Shown in pieces: positions 1,819 to 9,234 of a stretch of DNA of 22,664 nt (position 1 is its first letter; each line of letters begins with the position of its first letter). Source of the stretch: a virus; the IMG/VR virus record IMGVR_UViG_3300020448_000415, positions 1 through 22,664 of that record; one strand, written 5' to 3'. Below the pieces are notes generated by a model that saw only the letters and a program-made list of their open reading frames with translations, was not told where the DNA came from and did not search any database. A program made the translations under genes and the position numbers.

Positions 1819-3984
1819 ATGACAACAGACATCAACCAAGAAGTAAAAGGAACACTTGCTAGACTACTAGCAACAGAGAATCTAACAGTTGAGCACCGTA
1901 AAGTGTCTACAGCATTCTTTGATGTTGAGAAGAGACTTCTTTGCTTACCTATCTGGAAGACTGCTTCTAACACAGTATACGACCTTCTAGTAGGACACGA
2001 AGTAGGTCACGCTCTATACACACCAAACGCTAGACCTGACGGTGTTAACAAATCTTTCCTTAATGTTCTAGAGGATGTAAGAATAGAGAAGTTAATGAGA
2101 CAGACATATCCAGGTCTTAAGAAAACTTTCTTCGCAGGTTATGCTGAGTTATGGAGAGATGATTTCTTTGGTGTTGCAAACGATGATATAAACGAACTTG
2201 CTTTTATTGATCGTATCAACCTATTCTACAAAGGATGCTATGACATGGAGTTTACTGCAGAAGAGCAAGTATATGTAAATCGTGCAGGTGCAACAAAAAC
2301 TTTTGAAGAAGTTATTGAGTTAGCAAAAGAATTATATGATCTAATGGAAGAGAAGGAGCAAGAGAAACTAGAAGAGTTATCACAGGAACAGGAACAGCAA
2401 GACTTAGAAATCACTGACGATGAGAGAGAGTTAACTCCAACTAATGAAGAGACTCCTAGTGATTCAGACGAGATTGAATCTGATAAGTCTCCAAAGTCTG
2501 CTCAAGAACTTAGTGATGAGATTGATGAAGCACTAGACGAACTAATGAGTGGAAAGTATGGTTCAGATGAAGGCACTGTTAATGAGACAGAAGCAATGAC
2601 AGACAAAGCATTCCAAAAAGCATGTGAGCAACTAATTGATGAAGATGCTAAGGAGTGGGTTTATCTTGATTTACCTAAACTAGACCTAGACAAGTACATC
2701 AAACCTGCTAAAGAAATCAAAGACGAATTATTCTACTGGTTCAATGGTCAAGCACATTCATCTGAGGGTGCACAAGAAAGACATATGGAGAACCTAGACA
2801 ATGCTATCAAAAAGTATTTCGCATTCAAAAAGTCTTCAAACAAGACTGTTAACTATCTTGTAAAACAGTTTGAAATGAAGAAGTCTGCAGAGAATTACAA
2901 GAGAGCAGCAACTGCCAAGACAGGTGTTATCGATACAAACTCTCTTCACAAATACAAGTTGACTGAAGACATCTTCAAGAAAATTACTGTTGTCCCAGAT
3001 GGTAAGAATCATGGTCTTGTAATGTATCTTGACTGGTCTGGTTCTATGTCTTGGACTCTCCTTGATACACTTAAGCAAGTTTACAACCTAGTTTGGTTCT
3101 GTAAGAAAGTAAACATACCATTCAGAGTTTATGGATTTGCAAGTGGTTACTACGGTAGATATGGTTCACACAGCAACATTCATGAGTGCATGGTCAATCC
3201 AGATAATAATACACTAGCAATCGGTGATGACATTAGATTACTAGAGTTCTTATCTTCACAGCAAAGAACTAAAGAACTAGAAGAGTCAATGAAGTATCTA
3301 TTCCTTCAAGCAAGTTCTTTTCACAATAGTTACCTACAGTATTACACTCCTCTTGGATTAGGTGGAACTCCATTAGCAGAAGCATTATATGCTGCACGTC
3401 AATTAGTTGACAGACTAAAGGCACAAGAGAAAGTATCTAAGGTTAATGTTATATGCTTAACTGATGGTGAATCTCAACCAATGAGTTATATTCACAAATC
3501 AGAGTATGAGTATAATCATGGTGAACTAACTTCTAGATGTCTAGCATCTCAGTATGGTAAATTATTCTTCTTACGTGACAAACAAACTGGTTATACAAAG
3601 AAGATCACTAACACTTCATACAATACTACTGCTCAGATAGTAGGATTCCTTAGAGAAATTACAAACTATAACTGGGTAGGTATTCGTCTATGTAGTAAGG
3701 GTGAAGCAAATCGTATGTTCAGAGAGTATTCTCTTGACAAGTATGAGAAACTAGATAAGCAATGGAGAAAAGAGCGTTTCGCATCTATCAAAAATGACTG
3801 TGGATTTACTGAAGCATTCTTTATGCCAGATAGAGGTAACGGTGAAGATACCCAAGACCTTGAAGTAAAACAGAAAGGTGAAGTTGCAACAAGAGCAGAA
3901 CTAGGACGTGCATTCAAAAAGCACATGAATTCTAAGATGACAAACAAGACTGTTCTTAATAGATTCATAGATCAAATAGCATGA
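1819..3984 (+). CDS. CobT-like VWA-domain protein with N-terminal HEXXH motif
   Basis: A 721-aa protein in three parts. The N-terminus (1 to about 180) carries a zincin-type motif HEVGH at residues 60-64, followed by NVLEDVRIE with Glu85 as a possible third zinc ligand. The middle (about 190-270) is very acidic and Glu-rich. The C-terminal von Willebrand A domain has a full MIDAS set: DWSGSMS at 405-411, GGTP at 515-518 and LTDGE with Asp549. An acidic linker before a C-terminal VWA domain is also the plan of CobT, the partner of the AAA+ ATPase CobS in aerobic cobaltochelatase, and cobS lies at 5736. VWA proteins paired with MoxR-type ATPases form remodelling complexes. The HEXXH domain makes a peptidase or adaptor role possible; activity is unproven. 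It is the first gene of its operon, and its stop overlaps the pebS start (ATGA). Confidence 0.85.
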   Translation: MTTDINQEVKGTLARLLATENLTVEHRKVSTAFFDVEKRLLCLPIWKTASNTVYDLLVGHEVGHALYTPNARPDGVNKSFLNVLEDVRIEKLMRQTYPGLKKTFFAGYAELWRDDFFGVANDDINELAFIDRINLFYKGCYDMEFTAEEQVYVNRAGATKTFEEVIELAKELYDLMEEKEQEKLEELSQEQEQQDLEITDDERELTPTNEETPSDSDEIESDKSPKSAQELSDEIDEALDELMSGKYGSDEGTVNETEAMTDKAFQKACEQLIDEDAKEWVYLDLPKLDLDKYIKPAKEIKDELFYWFNGQAHSSEGAQERHMENLDNAIKKYFAFKKSSNKTVNYLVKQFEMKKSAENYKRAATAKTGVIDTNSLHKYKLTEDIFKKITVVPDGKNHGLVMYLDWSGSMSWTLLDTLKQVYNLVWFCKKVNIPFRVYGFASGYYGRYGSHSNIHECMVNPDNNTLAIGDDIRLLEFLSSQQRTKELEESMKYLFLQASSFHNSYLQYYTPLGLGGTPLAEALYAARQLVDRLKAQEKVSKVNVICLTDGESQPMSYIHKSEYEYNHGELTSRCLASQYGKLFFLRDKQTGYTKKITNTSYNTTAQIVGFLREITNYNWVGIRLCSKGEANRMFREYSLDKYEKLDKQWRKERFASIKNDCGFTEAFFMPDRGNGEDTQDLEVKQKGEVATRAELGRAFKKHMNSKMTNKTVLNRFIDQIA

Positions 3985-4604
3985 ACCTCTGGAAAAATTA
4001 TCAGGAAGCGGTCTTCGAGACGTTTCCTGATTTAACTTTTGAAAAACAACATGTTCACTGGATTAATAAACGAGGAGTAAACCTTACTGCTGATTTGTAC
4101 AGTGGAAAACATTTTATTAAATCTAGACACGTTGATATATGGGATGAGAAAATAAATATCCATAACAATGTGATCTATCCTAAGACTGGACATAACCTAC
4201 CATGTTTCGGTATGGACTTGATGGGATTCTTTGAGAAGAAAGTTATAATAGTATTTGACTTCCAACATCCTGTAGAAAAATATCTTTTATCTATACCTGA
4301 CTTACCTAAAGCAGAAGGAACATATAGATTTTTTGAACCAGGTAATCATTTTTCTGAAAACATATATGTAAAGTATTGCACTATGAGTGAGGTGGATGAT
4401 CATCTACCTATGTTTAAAAAATATCTATCTGTATATAAAAAGATGTTAGATGATGCACAACCTACTGGGGAAGATACTAGTTTATATAATGACTTCGATA
4501 AGTATATGATTAAACTAGACCCTATCTCAGGTTATCTATCTAATAGTTTTGGTAAAGAAGAATCAGAGAAATTAATCAAGGAGTTCTTTTTCAGTTATGC
4601 ATAA
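3981..4604 (+). CDS. pebS: Phycoerythrobilin synthase (ferredoxin-dependent bilin reductase)
   Basis: Reduces biliverdin IXalpha to phycoerythrobilin in two ferredoxin-dependent two-electron steps; PebS is a cyanophage enzyme that replaces host PebA plus PebB. As I recall the P-SSM2 PebS sequence, this protein follows it over nearly its whole length: NYQEAVFETFP near the start, YPKTG.NLPCFGMDLM, VIIVFDFQHP, YRFFEPGNHFS and the C-terminal EFFFSY. The two catalytic aspartates are conserved as Asp79 (GMDL) and Asp180 (KLDP), 101 residues apart as in PebS (Asp105/Asp206). At 207 aa it lacks the roughly 20-residue N-terminal extension of the P-SSM2 protein (233 aa). It overlaps the preceding gene by 4 nt and pcyA by 8 nt, so the operon is probably translationally coupled. 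Confidence 0.92.
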   Translation: MNLWKNYQEAVFETFPDLTFEKQHVHWINKRGVNLTADLYSGKHFIKSRHVDIWDEKINIHNNVIYPKTGHNLPCFGMDLMGFFEKKVIIVFDFQHPVEKYLLSIPDLPKAEGTYRFFEPGNHFSENIYVKYCTMSEVDDHLPMFKKYLSVYKKMLDDAQPTGEDTSLYNDFDKYMIKLDPISGYLSNSFGKEESEKLIKEFFFSYA

Positions 4605-5277
4605 TTTAAACCAAGACGTAGCAGTATTATTAGCATATTGTATGCAAGACTTTGAGGGTGTAAAACCTTTAGAGTGTCCTATACCCGAAGTAAAAAAGGA
4701 TGATCTTAAGATTAGGAATACAATGTATAGTACTCCTAAACTTAGAAAGATACATTTAGAATTAGCAGAATTAAAAGCATTAAAGATATTGCATTGTGTA
4801 TTCTTTCCTGACCCTCATTATAATTTACCTATCTTTGGATGTGACATTGTTGCTACTGATAAAACAGTTACTGCTGCTATAGTTGATGTGTCACCTGTAA
4901 AAGGATTTGAAGACTGGGATAAGATTAGAGAAATTAGTAATGCTTTTGAGTTTAGTGAGACTAGAACTATACCTGCGTGGGGTGATGGAGTATTCTCTCC
5001 CTATGCTAAGTTTATGCGTTTAAGTAAAGACAAAGATATATCAAACTTCTATGTTCTTTTAATAAACTATCTAAAAGTATATTGTGATATGGTAGATAAA
5101 GTTGAAAAGGATGACAACTGGATTATGACTATGCTAAGATATGATGACCAGATACATTATTGTAAGCAACAAAAAAAGAATGACAAAACTCGTGCCATTC
5201 TTGAAAAATTATTTGATAAGGACTGGGCAAACAATTACATAGATAATGTATTATTTGACCTTCCTAGGATTAAATAG
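4597..5277 (+). CDS. pcyA: Phycocyanobilin:ferredoxin oxidoreductase
   Basis: Four-electron reduction of biliverdin IXalpha to phycocyanobilin using ferredoxin. PcyA signatures are clear: YSTPKLRKIHLELA, ILHCVFFPDP, LPIFGCDIVA, VDVSPV, and the C-terminal block QIHYCKQQKKNDKTR followed by VLFD. The active-site trio of Synechocystis PcyA (Glu76, His88, Asp105) aligns to Glu55, His66 and Asp83. At 226 aa it is slightly shorter than the host enzyme (about 245), mostly at the N-terminus. It begins 8 nt inside the end of pebS. No heme oxygenase is present in this window, so biliverdin must come from the host or from a phage gene elsewhere. The last 27 nt overlap a minus-strand small gene. Confidence 0.95.
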   Translation: MHNLNQDVAVLLAYCMQDFEGVKPLECPIPEVKKDDLKIRNTMYSTPKLRKIHLELAELKALKILHCVFFPDPHYNLPIFGCDIVATDKTVTAAIVDVSPVKGFEDWDKIREISNAFEFSETRTIPAWGDGVFSPYAKFMRLSKDKDISNFYVLLINYLKVYCDMVDKVEKDDNWIMTMLRYDDQIHYCKQQKKNDKTRAILEKLFDKDWANNYIDNVLFDLPRIK

Positions 5278-5735: not shown

Positions 5736-6806
5736 ATGACTTTCAAAGCAATTTTCACAACAGACGATCTTCTATCATTTTTCGAGACAGGAGATATTGA
5801 TACTAACCAAGTAAAATCATTTGCAGAAAAGCACGGTGTTCAAATACAAAGTGTTACTAAGAGAATGAACAAGTTACCACAGTTCCAGAAACTTGGTCGT
5901 GGTCGTTGGAATCTTACAGCACAAGAAATACATAAAGCATTCGTAGCACCTTCTGCTAAACCTGCTGTAGATGTATCCTATGTTCCTGATAAGGATTCTT
6001 CTTTTGTTCAGTTCGGTAACTTCAATAGTCTCAAAAAGATTATATCATCTAGACTATTCTACCCTGCATTCATCACAGGTCTATCTGGTAACGGTAAGAC
6101 TTTTTCTGTAGAGCAAGCATGTGCTTCTCTAAATAGAGAACTCATTAGAGTAAACATCACTATCGAAACAGATGAAGATGATCTTATCGGTGGATTCCGT
6201 TTGAATGATGGTTCTACTGTATGGCACAACGGTCCTGTCATAGAAGCACTTGAGAGAGGTGCAGTACTTTTACTAGACGAGATTGACTTAGCATCTAACA
6301 AGATCTTATGTCTACAATCTATCCTTGAAGGTAAGGGTGTATTCCTTAAGAAAATTGGAAGATTTGTAAAACCTGCTGAAGGTTTCACAATTATAGCCAC
6401 CGCTAATACAAAAGGTAAAGGTTCAGAAGATGGTAGATTCATCGGAACCAATGTTCTTAACGAAGCATTCCTTGAGAGATTCCCAATTACTTTCGAGCAA
6501 GACTATCCTGCTGCATCTACTGAGACTAAGATACTTCTTAATCAAGGATGTCAAAAAGACTTTGCAGAGAATCTTGTCAGATGGGCAGGTGTTATCCGTA
6601 AGACATTCTTTGACGGTGGAGTAGACGAAGTTATTACAACTCGTAGACTTGTTCACATTGTTCAAGCATTCAATATCTTCAATGATAAAATGACTGCTAT
6701 CACTCACTGTGTTAATCGTTTCGATGACGATACAAAACAATCTTTCCTAGATCTTTATACAAAAGTTGACGCAGGAGAAGATTCAGAGTATAATGAAGGG
6801 GAATAA
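5736..6806 (+). CDS. cobS: CobS-like / MoxR-type AAA+ ATPase
   Basis: A 356-aa AAA+ ATPase of the CobS/MoxR group, found in nearly all T4-like cyanophages. Walker A GLSGNGKT is at 115-122, Walker B LLLDEID at 178-184, sensor 1 ATANT at 221-225, and the arginine-finger segment NEAFLERFP ends near 250. Residues 1-70 precede the ATPase and look like a small helical domain. In bacteria CobS drives cobalt insertion together with CobT and CobN. No CobN-like chelatase is visible here, but a CobT-like VWA protein lies 1.7 kb upstream, so an ATPase-VWA pair is likely. The start at 5736 follows a strong promoter. The Shine-Dalgarno is weak. A GC hairpin covers the stop codon. Confidence 0.9.
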   Translation: MTFKAIFTTDDLLSFFETGDIDTNQVKSFAEKHGVQIQSVTKRMNKLPQFQKLGRGRWNLTAQEIHKAFVAPSAKPAVDVSYVPDKDSSFVQFGNFNSLKKIISSRLFYPAFITGLSGNGKTFSVEQACASLNRELIRVNITIETDEDDLIGGFRLNDGSTVWHNGPVIEALERGAVLLLDEIDLASNKILCLQSILEGKGVFLKKIGRFVKPAEGFTIIATANTKGKGSEDGRFIGTNVLNEAFLERFPITFEQDYPAASTETKILLNQGCQKDFAENLVRWAGVIRKTFFDGGVDEVITTRRLVHIVQAFNIFNDKMTAITHCVNRFDDDTKQSFLDLYTKVDAGEDSEYNEGE

Positions 6807-6820: not shown

Positions 6821-7135
6821 ATGAGGAAATACAATGAGGATGATTATCTCAAAGAGATATCTGAATACATTGCCAATACATACCGAGGTCATTATTCTGT
6901 AGGAAACGTACAGACTCTTGACCTCATTGATTCTGTTGGGGATGCTGAAGCATTCTGTAGGAGTAACGTCCTTAAGTATGCATCACGCTACGACAGAAAA
7001 GGAACAGCAAGAAAGGATATTCTAAAGATTATCCATTATGGATTACTTCTTTTACACTTTAGCGATAAAGCAGAAAGAGCAAACCAAAACATAGCAGAGA
7101 CCCCTACTGCATTCTCAGTTGATTACGACAAATGA
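6821..7135 (+). CDS. DUF3310-like small phage protein
   Basis: A 104-aa protein with the layout of the phage DUF3310 family. A helix with TLDLIDSVGDAEAFC is followed by NVLKYASRYDRKG and then DILKIIHYGLLLLHF, matching the family pattern of an acidic-aromatic helix, N..KY..R...KG and a long C-terminal helix. Some members of this family have been annotated as nucleotide kinases, but I see no P-loop here. It is the first gene after cobS, and its stop overlaps the gp45 start (ATGA), so it belongs to the replication transcript. Confidence 0.6.
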   Translation: MRKYNEDDYLKEISEYIANTYRGHYSVGNVQTLDLIDSVGDAEAFCRSNVLKYASRYDRKGTARKDILKIIHYGLLLLHFSDKAERANQNIAETPTAFSVDYDK

Positions 7136-7791
7136 TTATGATTACTAAACCCACTATTGAAATATTAAAGAACTTCTGTTCTATTAACAAGTCTCTTGTT
7201 ATTAAACCTGGTAATAGGTTAAGCACCTTGAGTATTAATAAAAATATTCTTGTCTACGCAGATGTAGAAGAACAGTTTGATTCTGAAATGTCAATCTATG
7301 ATTTATCTACATTCTTAGGTGGGTTATCTTTATTTGAAAAACCATCTATAGATACATCCAAGAGCAACTACGTAACTGTTAGCGATGCAGCAGGACGTTC
7401 TAAGACTAGATTTTTCTATGCTGACCCAGATATTATTACACAACCACCTGCGAAAGAAATTACACTTCCTAGTGTGGATGTTAATTTCAGCATTGATGCT
7501 AATACTCTTCAGCAACTTCAACGTGCTGCCTCAGTATACCAACTACCTGACTTATGTCTTTATGGTGATGGTGAGGTAATGAACTTGACTGTATGTGACA
7601 AGAAGAATGATACTTCTAATAGTTACTCAGTTGAGGTAGGAAATTCAGATTCAGAATTCTGTTATTGTTTCAGAGTTGAGAACTTAAAGTTATTACCTGG
7701 TTCTTACGATGTGTCAATAAGTAAAACTAACGTTGCACTCTTCCAAGGTAATGGGATAAAATACTTTATAGCACTAGAACCAGAATCATGA
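7132..7791 (+). CDS. 45: DNA polymerase sliding clamp gp45
   Basis: T4-type processivity clamp, a ring that tethers gp43 polymerase to DNA and in T4 also activates late transcription. The 219-aa length is close to T4 gp45 (228). The N-terminal segment TIEILKNFCSINKSLVIKPG and the strand-rich remainder ending in IKYFIALEPES fit the family, as does its position ahead of gp44 and gp62. Two in-frame ATGs exist (7132 and 7138); the first forms an ATGA overlap with the upstream gene and is preferred. The downstream gene overlaps its stop by 4 nt. Confidence 0.88.
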   Translation: MIMITKPTIEILKNFCSINKSLVIKPGNRLSTLSINKNILVYADVEEQFDSEMSIYDLSTFLGGLSLFEKPSIDTSKSNYVTVSDAAGRSKTRFFYADPDIITQPPAKEITLPSVDVNFSIDANTLQQLQRAASVYQLPDLCLYGDGEVMNLTVCDKKNDTSNSYSVEVGNSDSEFCYCFRVENLKLLPGSYDVSISKTNVALFQGNGIKYFIALEPES

Positions 7792-8285
7792 ACATTTTTG
7801 TGACTGACCCAGACCCCATTAAATCAGCACAAGTTTTACCAGACAAACATATAGTAAAGATGCCTTTAGAAACATGTCAAATGCTTGCTATTGTTGCATC
7901 AGAGAAATGGGGTCATGGATTCGGTGTTCTACCTAAAGTAGATGGAGCACCATACAAAACAGACAAGGGTGCATTTCGTAACCATCCTTGTACTATCTGG
8001 GCACAGACTAACTTTCGTTGGTTGATTGATCACGGTCTTGCATTATGTGCAGAGTATACTCACAGATACAACAAAGTCCACAGTTGTCAGTATACTATAG
8101 AATGTGCTGATATCATATTTCCTGATTGCCCACCGCCAACATCATTCACCAGAGCGATGCCCGATGGGTTTAAATATGACACAAGCATTGACACTTTTAC
8201 TGCTTACAAGAATTACATTAGCAGCAAACCTTGGGTTGCATCTAATTATCTTCGTGACGAATCCAGAAAACCAAATTGGGTATGA
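7788..8285 (+). CDS. Conserved phage protein, function unknown
   Basis: A 165-aa protein of a family I recognise as common in cyanophages and other phages. Conserved-looking blocks are FVTDPDPIKSAQVLPDKHIV, KMPLETCQMLAIV, GAFRNHPCTIWA, YNKVHSCQY and the C-terminal SRKPNWV. Conserved His, Cys, Asp and Arg residues suggest an enzyme. Distant similarity to pyrimidine-dimer glycosylases (DenV) is sometimes suggested for such proteins, but I cannot confirm it. It lies between gp45 and gp44, so a link to replication or repair is likely by context only. Its ATG overlaps the gp45 stop. Confidence 0.8.
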   Translation: MNIFVTDPDPIKSAQVLPDKHIVKMPLETCQMLAIVASEKWGHGFGVLPKVDGAPYKTDKGAFRNHPCTIWAQTNFRWLIDHGLALCAEYTHRYNKVHSCQYTIECADIIFPDCPPPTSFTRAMPDGFKYDTSIDTFTAYKNYISSKPWVASNYLRDESRKPNWV

Positions 8286-8292
8286 TTAAATT

Positions 8293-9234
8293 ATGAATGA
8301 TTTTTTATGGGTAGAGAAGTATCGTCCTAAAAAGATTGAGGATTGTATACTTCCTACTAATGTGAAGAACACCTTTAAAAGTTTTGTAGAGCAGGGGGAG
8401 ATACCAAATCTTCTACTATCTGGAACTGCAGGTGTAGGTAAAACAACTATTGCAAAAGCATTATGTTATGAACTTGGAGCAGATTTTTATGTCATCAATG
8501 GATCAGACGAAGGACGATTCCTCGATACAGTCCGAAATCAAGCAAAGACGTTTGCATCAACTGTTTCTCTTACAGCAGGAGCAAAGCACAAAGTCCTTAT
8601 CATTGATGAGGCAGACAACACTACCCCAGATGTACAACTCTTACTTCGTGCATCGATAGAGGAGTTTCAAAAGAACTGTAGATTTATATTTACATGTAAC
8701 TTCAAAAATAAAATCATTGAACCTCTACACAGTAGAACAACTGTAATAGATTTCAATGTTCGTGGTAAAATTAAACAACAACTTGCATCTGAATTCTTTG
8801 GATCAACTCGTAACATACTTAACGCAGAAGGTGTACAATATACTGATGCAGTGGTCGCTCAAGTCGTCCAAAAATACTTCCCAGACTTTAGAAGAACCTT
8901 AAATGAATTACAAAGATATGCTTCTACTGGTAATATTGATACTGGTATTCTAGCAACATTAGGTGATGCTAAAATAGATCCACTAGTAGCATCTCTAAAG
9001 GCAAAGAAATTTAATGATGTTAAGAAATGGGTGCAACAGAATCTAGACAATGATCCTGTATCTATCATGCGTAAACTGTATGACAATTTATCTACAACAG
9101 TAGATGGTCCTAGTGTTGCTGCAGCAGTTTTAATAATTGCAGAGTATCAATACAAGTCTGCCTTTGTTGTAGATCAAGAGATAAACCTATTGGCTTGTCT
9201 TACTCAAATTATGTTGGAGTGTAACTTCAAGTGA
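8293..9234 (+). CDS. 44: Clamp loader large subunit gp44 (AAA+ ATPase)
   Basis: ATPase subunit of the T4-type clamp loader (gp44/gp62), which opens gp45 and loads it on primer-template DNA. 313 aa, near T4 gp44 (319). Motifs: the N-terminal WVEKYRPK box, Walker A GTAGVGKT (44-51), Walker B LIIDEAD (102-108), sensor 1 TCNFKNKI (134-141) and the Ser-Arg pair of the SRC-like motif at 147-148. A short 7-nt gap separates it from the upstream gene, and its TGA overlaps the GTG of the next. Unlike in T4, the small subunit gp62 does not follow directly; three genes lie between. Confidence 0.95.
   Translation: MNDFLWVEKYRPKKIEDCILPTNVKNTFKSFVEQGEIPNLLLSGTAGVGKTTIAKALCYELGADFYVINGSDEGRFLDTVRNQAKTFASTVSLTAGAKHKVLIIDEADNTTPDVQLLLRASIEEFQKNCRFIFTCNFKNKIIEPLHSRTTVIDFNVRGKIKQQLASEFFGSTRNILNAEGVQYTDAVVAQVVQKYFPDFRRTLNELQRYASTGNIDTGILATLGDAKIDPLVASLKAKKFNDVKKWVQQNLDNDPVSIMRKLYDNLSTTVDGPSVAAAVLIIAEYQYKSAFVVDQEINLLACLTQIMLECNFK

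Follow-up and report, generated by a model that had tools for sequence, protein, structure and literature searches.

The window, by which we mean the whole stretch of DNA that was analysed, is the full IMG/VR record IMGVR_UViG_3300020448_000415 (22,664 bases) and is probably a fragment of a genome. Homologues of gp45, gp44, RegA, gp43 and UvsX were identified in it by profile and domain matches, which marks the window as the replication region of a T4-like cyanophage. It encodes a 721-aa protein with an HEXXH motif and a VWA domain, as well as a CobS-like ATPase (Table 1). The initial annotation had classed the latter as a MoxR-type AAA+ protein, and this assignment holds, given the matches to AAA_5 (4.7e-18) and CbbQ_C (1.4e-5), the Walker A and B motifs and the helix-2 insert. 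As in MoxR-AAA+/VWA couples, AAA+ motifs are therefore found in one gene and a VWA domain with a complete MIDAS in a gene linked to it. No CobN-family gene was found in the 22,664 bases of this probable genome fragment, in agreement with the earlier statement that the window contains no chelatase subunit.

Several other genes surround the pair. Tandem bilin reductase genes (3981-4604 and 4597-5277) lie between the VWA gene and cobS, the first being closest to phycoerythrobilin synthase (PDB 2vck, 9e-74) and the second to PcyA (2d1e, 8e-44); the start codon of the first (3981) overlaps the stop codon of the VWA gene. Positions 23-1741 hold a shortened glycine decarboxylase (GcvP) gene of 572 aa, which shares 76% identity with the versions of P-HM1, P-HM2 and MED4-213. 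A pyrimidine-dimer glycosylase gene at 7788-8285 belongs to the same cluster as the pair, and such a gene also clusters with the pair in Roseobacter phage CRP-810 (L227 6037-6531).

Table 1. Coordinates of the HEXXH/VWA gene, cobS and neighbouring replisome genes in the window, with the features predicted or conserved in their products
Feature	Position	Strand	Basis
HEXXH and VWA protein, 721 aa, CobT-like	1819..3984	+	phrog_459 'peptidase', E 1e-285
N-terminal zincin-like domain (predicted), residues 8-178	1840..2352	+	AlphaFold2 pLDDT 92.2; Foldseek zincin ranks
HEVGH, residues 60-64, on helix 51-67	1996..2010	+	H60, E61, H64 invariant in both alignments
NVLEDVRIE (NxxEDxRIE), residues 82-90, on helix 78-96	2062..2088	+	N82, E85, D86, R88 invariant in both alignments
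Acidic low-complexity linker, residues 180-255, 37% D/E	2356..2583	+	mean column identity 0.24; largely low pLDDT
Conserved finger-like segment before VWA, residues 367-397	2917..3009	+	mean identity 0.75; aligned by hhalign to phage CobT equivalent
VWA domain, residues 398-660	3010..3798	+	best Foldseek PDB match NorD in NorQD, 9qhe, E 1.4e-4
MIDAS DxSxS, residues 405-409	3031..3045	+	D405, S407, S409 invariant in both alignments
MIDAS Thr517	3367..3369	+	invariant in 34-sequence alignment; at least 90% in 56-sequence alignment
MIDAS Asp549	3463..3465	+	invariant in both alignments
Conserved C-terminal helix, residues 690-721	3886..3981	+	mean identity 0.65
CobS-like MoxR-type AAA+ ATPase, 356 aa	5736..6806	+	AAA_5 4.7e-18; phrog_249 3.4e-137; TIGR01650 74.9 bits vs 558.6 cut-off
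CobS Walker A, GLSGNGKT	6078..6101	+	sequence motif
CobS GGFRLNDGST, helix-2-insert-like	6189..6218	+	length and G, L, T positions as in NorQ motif GRXLL/IXXXXT (PMC13036017)
CobS Walker B, LLLDEID	6267..6287	+	sequence motif
gp45-type sliding clamp, replisome neighbour (context only)	7132..7791	+	domain/profile matches
gp44-type clamp loader, replisome neighbour (context only)	8293..9234	+	domain match

Conservation and predicted fold of the 721-aa protein

Conservation was assessed in two alignments, one of 34 sequences with identities down to 25% and one of 56 diverse members. H60, E61, H64, N82, E85, D86, R88, D405, S407, S409, T517 and D549 are all invariant in the former, and the same set is invariant in the latter apart from T517, which at least 90% of the members share. 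The HEVGH motif, the ED.RIE helix and the complete MIDAS noted in the initial annotation are thus confirmed. Among the 56 members, mean column identity is 0.89 for the HEXXH helix (residues 51-67), compared with 0.52 for the entire protein, 0.49 for the VWA domain and 0.24 for the linker; the HEXXH helix is the most constrained of the stretches measured. This conservation rules out a chance HEXXH, and full-length homologues in hundreds of phages rule out a chimeric or misassembled ORF. Members of the family normally combine HEXXH and VWA, so this architecture is not a fusion peculiar to the window phage, and the earlier wording of an HEXXH motif 'fused' to a VWA protein was right as to both parts but loose.

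Direct Pfam and PDB sequence searches with the 721-aa protein matched neither a VWA domain nor a peptidase; these features emerged only from profile comparison and structure. The full-length AlphaFold2 model has a mean pLDDT of 80, and its best PDB match in Foldseek is NorD in NorQD (E 1.4e-4), with the MIDAS domain of MDN1 also listed. In the model of the N-terminal domain, strands and the HEXXH helix (51-67) are followed by the helix that carries the ED motif (78-96). When this model was searched against the PDB, ranks 1-17 were all HEXXH zincins, as classed by family, each of them non-significant individually (best E 0.076, probability up to 0.99). PDB neighbours comprise ArdC, selecase, minigluzincin zymogens, PprI/IrrE, Wss1 and M1 and M61 peptidases, at 9-16% identity in the structural alignments, and the viral models (BFVD) that match are phage CobT/VWFA proteins, a Haloarcula tailed virus 2 protein and a SprT-like protein. 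The N-terminal domain is hence predicted to be a zincin, in line with the gluzincin-like site proposed earlier. In minigluzincins/selecase, ArdC, PprI/IrrE and Wss1, as in the predicted domain, the HEXXH helix precedes a second helix whose acidic residues are conserved; none of them is known to have an AAA+/VWA partner. Judging from the motif, E85 or D86 is a candidate third zinc ligand, although E85 may be structural, because its equivalent persists in relatives without HEXXH.

Relation to CobT and linkage to cobS

Profile comparison connects the cyanophage family to the phage CobT of SSU5-type phage-plasmids and their relatives (probability 98.5, E 3e-15), with HEVGH aligned on HEVGH and NVLEDVRIE on NALEDVYIE. 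This phage CobT group in turn matches alphaproteobacterial CobT (probability 100, E 1.2e-46). Compared directly with the cellular CobT profile, the cyanophage family gives a weak match (probability 33%, E 4.5e-4), and the link between the two therefore rests on the phage CobT bridge. By this route, the 721-aa protein can be placed as a remote relative of CobT. The SSU5-type 'CobT' (PF06213 and PF11775) and its CobS resemble the cyanophage pair closely: HEVGH or HEVAH is followed by an ED helix, an acidic linker and a VWA domain with MIDAS, and cobS lies directly downstream. They differ in that the Klebsiella member, like the CobT of Pseudomonas phage nickie, matches the Pfam CobT models whereas the cyanophage protein is undetected by them, and in that the next gene block is dnaE.

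The HEXXH motif is distributed differently in cells. A representative alphaproteobacterial CobT has ACSLR at the corresponding positions, and among the CobT-type proteins of alphaproteobacterial genomes 35 of 36 are without HEXXH, including all 35 main copies. Given this distribution, most phage and mobile-element versions can be told apart from chelatase-type CobT by the signature of the zinc site. The one exception (L205) is a second CobT-like gene on the bacterial chromosome of genome G142, with HEAAH (L230 7314-8816); a CobS-like gene is found near it (L230 9992-10996), with a 358-aa ORF in between.

We then considered how regularly the two phage genes occur together. Across 157 loci with an intact VWA gene, taken from IMG/VR contigs and a few contigs of GTDB assemblies, cobS lies downstream in 140, while the other 17 end 67-1601 bases after the gene. 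Every contig that extends far enough thus has the two genes next to each other, and the co-occurrence expected from the initial annotation was borne out. Tblastn among phage records retrieved the 721-aa protein in 463 records and CobS in 674, 456 of these at 60-80% identity; in three cyanophage name groups the counts for the two genes were equal (365, 61 and 24, as totals compared per group). The link between CobS and the VWA protein had been offered as an inference from family pairing and proximity, but it is not new, because Liu et al. 2021 (PMC8651126) published it: in their passages on the subject, the genes form a core cobST cluster and "peptidase" is a mis-annotation. The HEXXH site is not addressed in those same passages (PMC8651126). 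Neither the 'cobT' nor the 'peptidase' label fits the 721-aa protein fully.

Two further candidates for such a pair were rejected. In Staphylococcus phage 812, the ATPase is interrupted by a premature stop according to its annotation, and no VWA/HEXXH partner lies close to it; in Microbacterium phage Pumpernickel no HEXXH or MIDAS partner was present in the stretch viewed.

The vitamin B12 reading

As a core gene of T4-like cyanophages, cobS is often counted as evidence for phage-boosted B12 synthesis. In the published reading, proposed in passages of PMC8651126 and PMC5083919, viral CobST hijacks the host CobN and thereby provides more cobalamin for a host B12-dependent ribonucleotide reductase. 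The remote CobT homology and the CobS-like AAA+ partner are consistent with this proposal, and CobN/ChlH-family (PF02514) genes are present in 59 of 61 host-family genomes, mostly as two genes, although PF02514 also covers Mg-chelatase H. Since nearly all host-family genomes carry such genes, the hijack of a host CobN is conceivable, and for the same reason a CobN encoded elsewhere by the phage would be weak evidence against a role of the pair outside cobalamin synthesis. We nevertheless regard the hijack as unlikely, in view of the following observations.

Both window proteins miss the equivalog cut-offs of the chelatase subunits. In NCBIfam, TIGR01651 (CobT, cut-off 759 bits) did not match the 721-aa protein, nor did the Pfam CobT domains PF06213 and PF11775, and the window CobS scored 74.9 bits against TIGR01650, whose cut-off is 558.6 bits. 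The CobS/CobT of the alphaproteobacterial aerobic cobaltochelatase share with the pair the combination of an AAA+ and a VWA protein, and their CobT N-domain keeps an E-x-x-R-x-E helix; they work with CobN, however, and HEXXH, the best conserved part of the phage protein, is absent from chelatase-type CobT. Neither a VWA/HEXXH homologue nor a phage-type CobS was found in 60 other host-family genomes, which gave only weak AAA-level matches to CobS. The sole strong match in each search came from genome G002, on the contig that gave L090, with a phage-type gene neighbourhood. With no homologue of either type in those 60 genomes, the pair is not a host-derived metabolic gene set there.

The range of hosts argues in the same direction, as SAR11 and E. 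coli, both of which lack B12 synthesis, have phages with related pairs. Pelagibacter phage HTVC008M carries both genes side by side, and SAR11 is reported to be auxotrophic for B12 (PMC9296465). SSU5-type relatives reside in E. coli, in which cobN, cobS and cobT had to be supplied for cobalt insertion (PMC6249242). The ribonucleotide reductases do not follow the expected pattern either, in a contrast of two phages that is not a survey: S-PM2, which has cobST, encodes the class I, B12-independent NrdA/NrdB, whereas P-SSP7, which has the class II, B12-dependent nrdJ, is without annotated cobST. Moreover, each gene name has two meanings, which some publications confuse. CobS also denotes cobamide synthase and CobT a nucleobase phosphoribosyltransferase (PMC8749415), and these meanings have been applied to chelatase-type phage genes in PMC11288001 as well as in the annotation of phage Cyrano. 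Altogether, the B12 reading of the pair is poorly supported and, as the initial annotation had suspected, looks wrong or incomplete.

Replisome neighbourhood and a possible remodelling mechanism

In no fewer than three phage lineages, genes of the replisome or of recombination lie next to the pair. In S-PM2 its neighbours are gp46 and gp45/gp44, and in Ochrobactrum phage OC and Pelagibacter phage HTVC008M gp46/gp47 and clamp genes are located next to it. In SSU5, Cyrano, nickie (Pseudomonas) and Rhizobium, Stenotrophomonas and Acinetobacter elements, dnaE is found within a few genes of the pair, and Vibrio MJW and Cobavirinae T5S1 (both Zobellviridae) carry a primase/polymerase beside it. No replisome genes were seen beside the pair in the stretches viewed of Gordonia, Tsukamurella and Roseobacter CRP-810. 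Because the pair sits among replisome genes in at least three lineages, phage DNA replication or recombination is its likely setting.

We consider it somewhat probable that the two proteins form a two-component MoxR-AAA+/VWA remodelling complex with a zincin head, which acts on replication or recombination proteins. The CobS-like protein would be the ATPase ring and the 721-aa protein its co-chaperone, whose C-terminal VWA domain would grip the substrate through the intact MIDAS, while the finger segment and the C-terminal helix would dock on the ring. The zincin-type N-terminal domain would serve as the working head, joined through the long acidic linker. ATP-driven movement of the VWA domain relative to the head could then pull apart or reposition the bound protein and, where the zinc site is intact and binds metal, the head may also cut it. 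This model draws on NorQD, in which a finger of the VWA domain reaches into the pore of the ATPase ring, to which the C-terminus docks, and the linker between the VWA and N-domains is stretched (PMC13036017). By analogy with that complex, we propose a pull on a MIDAS-bound protein relative to the zincin head, a pore-finger role for residues 367-397 and an ATPase-docking role for the helix at 690-721. NorQ/NorD likewise consists of a MoxR ATPase and a VWA partner with N-domain, linker and finger, and provides the best PDB match to the VWA fold, but it inserts iron into nitric oxide reductase.

Whether the head would be catalytic is a separate matter. The HEXXH motif is fully retained in the entire cyanophage family and in most other lineages examined, where it takes the forms HEVGH, HEVAH, HESAH, HEAGH, HEIGH, HETGH and HECYH, the Gordonia, Tsukamurella and Vibrio proteins being assigned by motif pattern alone; this retention suggests that the metal site matters. 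In contrast, relatives from Stenotrophomonas (DREVS, L217), Acinetobacter (DQEVA, L218) and Pseudomonas nickie (DSEIS, L086) have lost both histidines while keeping the glutamate, the VWA domain and the adjacent AAA+ gene. Proteolysis by the 721-aa protein is plausible, but it cannot be a function common to all members, because several have lost both HEXXH histidines. The initial annotation had pictured an AAA+/VWA remodelling or proteolytic machine; the NorD-like VWA domain and the adjacent cobS speak for the machine, and 'proteolytic' went too far. A narrower form of our explanation, in which the complex only remodels and the zincin head serves for binding or structure without being catalytic, is quite possible, though not what we would expect from the retention of the full motif. 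It would account for the relatives without histidines and agrees with cellular CobT, which is without the site, as well as with NorD, described as working by remodelling (PMC13036017). The annotation of the CobT-like region on Acinetobacter plasmid p37662RM1d21 divides it into two ORFs that overlap (L218 3989-5910).

A stronger form would make the protein a Wss1/SPRTN-like protease that clears DNA-bound or cross-linked proteins at phage forks with the help of the AAA+ partner. ArdC, PprI/IrrE, Wss1 and the SprT-like phage protein among the structural neighbours of the N-domain are DNA-linked metalloproteases, the gene neighbourhood is that of a replisome and a pyrimidine-dimer glycosylase gene belongs to the same cluster. 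The likeness is, however, to the general zincin core, the ranks are weak and no DNA-binding element was identified in the protein, so that we hold this form to be very unlikely. Returning to the zincin-headed remodelling complex, a broader and rather doubtful extension, which we offer tentatively, is that in tailed phages the CobST-like pairs act at the replication fork as a metalloprotease/remodelase driven by the AAA+ protein. They would then form an accessory system of replication that has gone unrecognised, and cellular chelatase CobT would be a relative without the zinc site. If so, calling this core gene of T4-like cyanophages a 'B12 gene' would be an annotation error.

If the pair is a zincin-headed remodelling machine, the counts of cobS as a B12 gene have been misread, and phages of cyanobacteria, SAR11, enterobacteria, rhizobia and vibrios share a core replication-linked function that has not been studied so far. 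The phage-plasmid relatives in E. coli open the model to testing in a standard laboratory host. A viral MoxR AAA+ protein with a VWA partner has a precedent in p618/p892 of Acidianus two-tailed virus, cited in a passage of PMC7159879; unlike the role proposed here, that pair acts in tail development, and we set it beside ours by its description there.

Finally, we looked at CobT in cells. Among 144 alphaproteobacterial genomes (G001, G005-G146), CobT (PF06213) is present in 114 and a CobN-family gene (PF02514) in 61. CobT occurs without any CobN-family gene in 55 of the 144, a count in which genome gaps and search sensitivity are uncontrolled and which may be too low for genomes without CobN itself, because PF02514 also covers Mg-chelatase H. 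If this count holds, it suggests that CobST also does something other than cobalamin synthesis in cells, independently of CobN.
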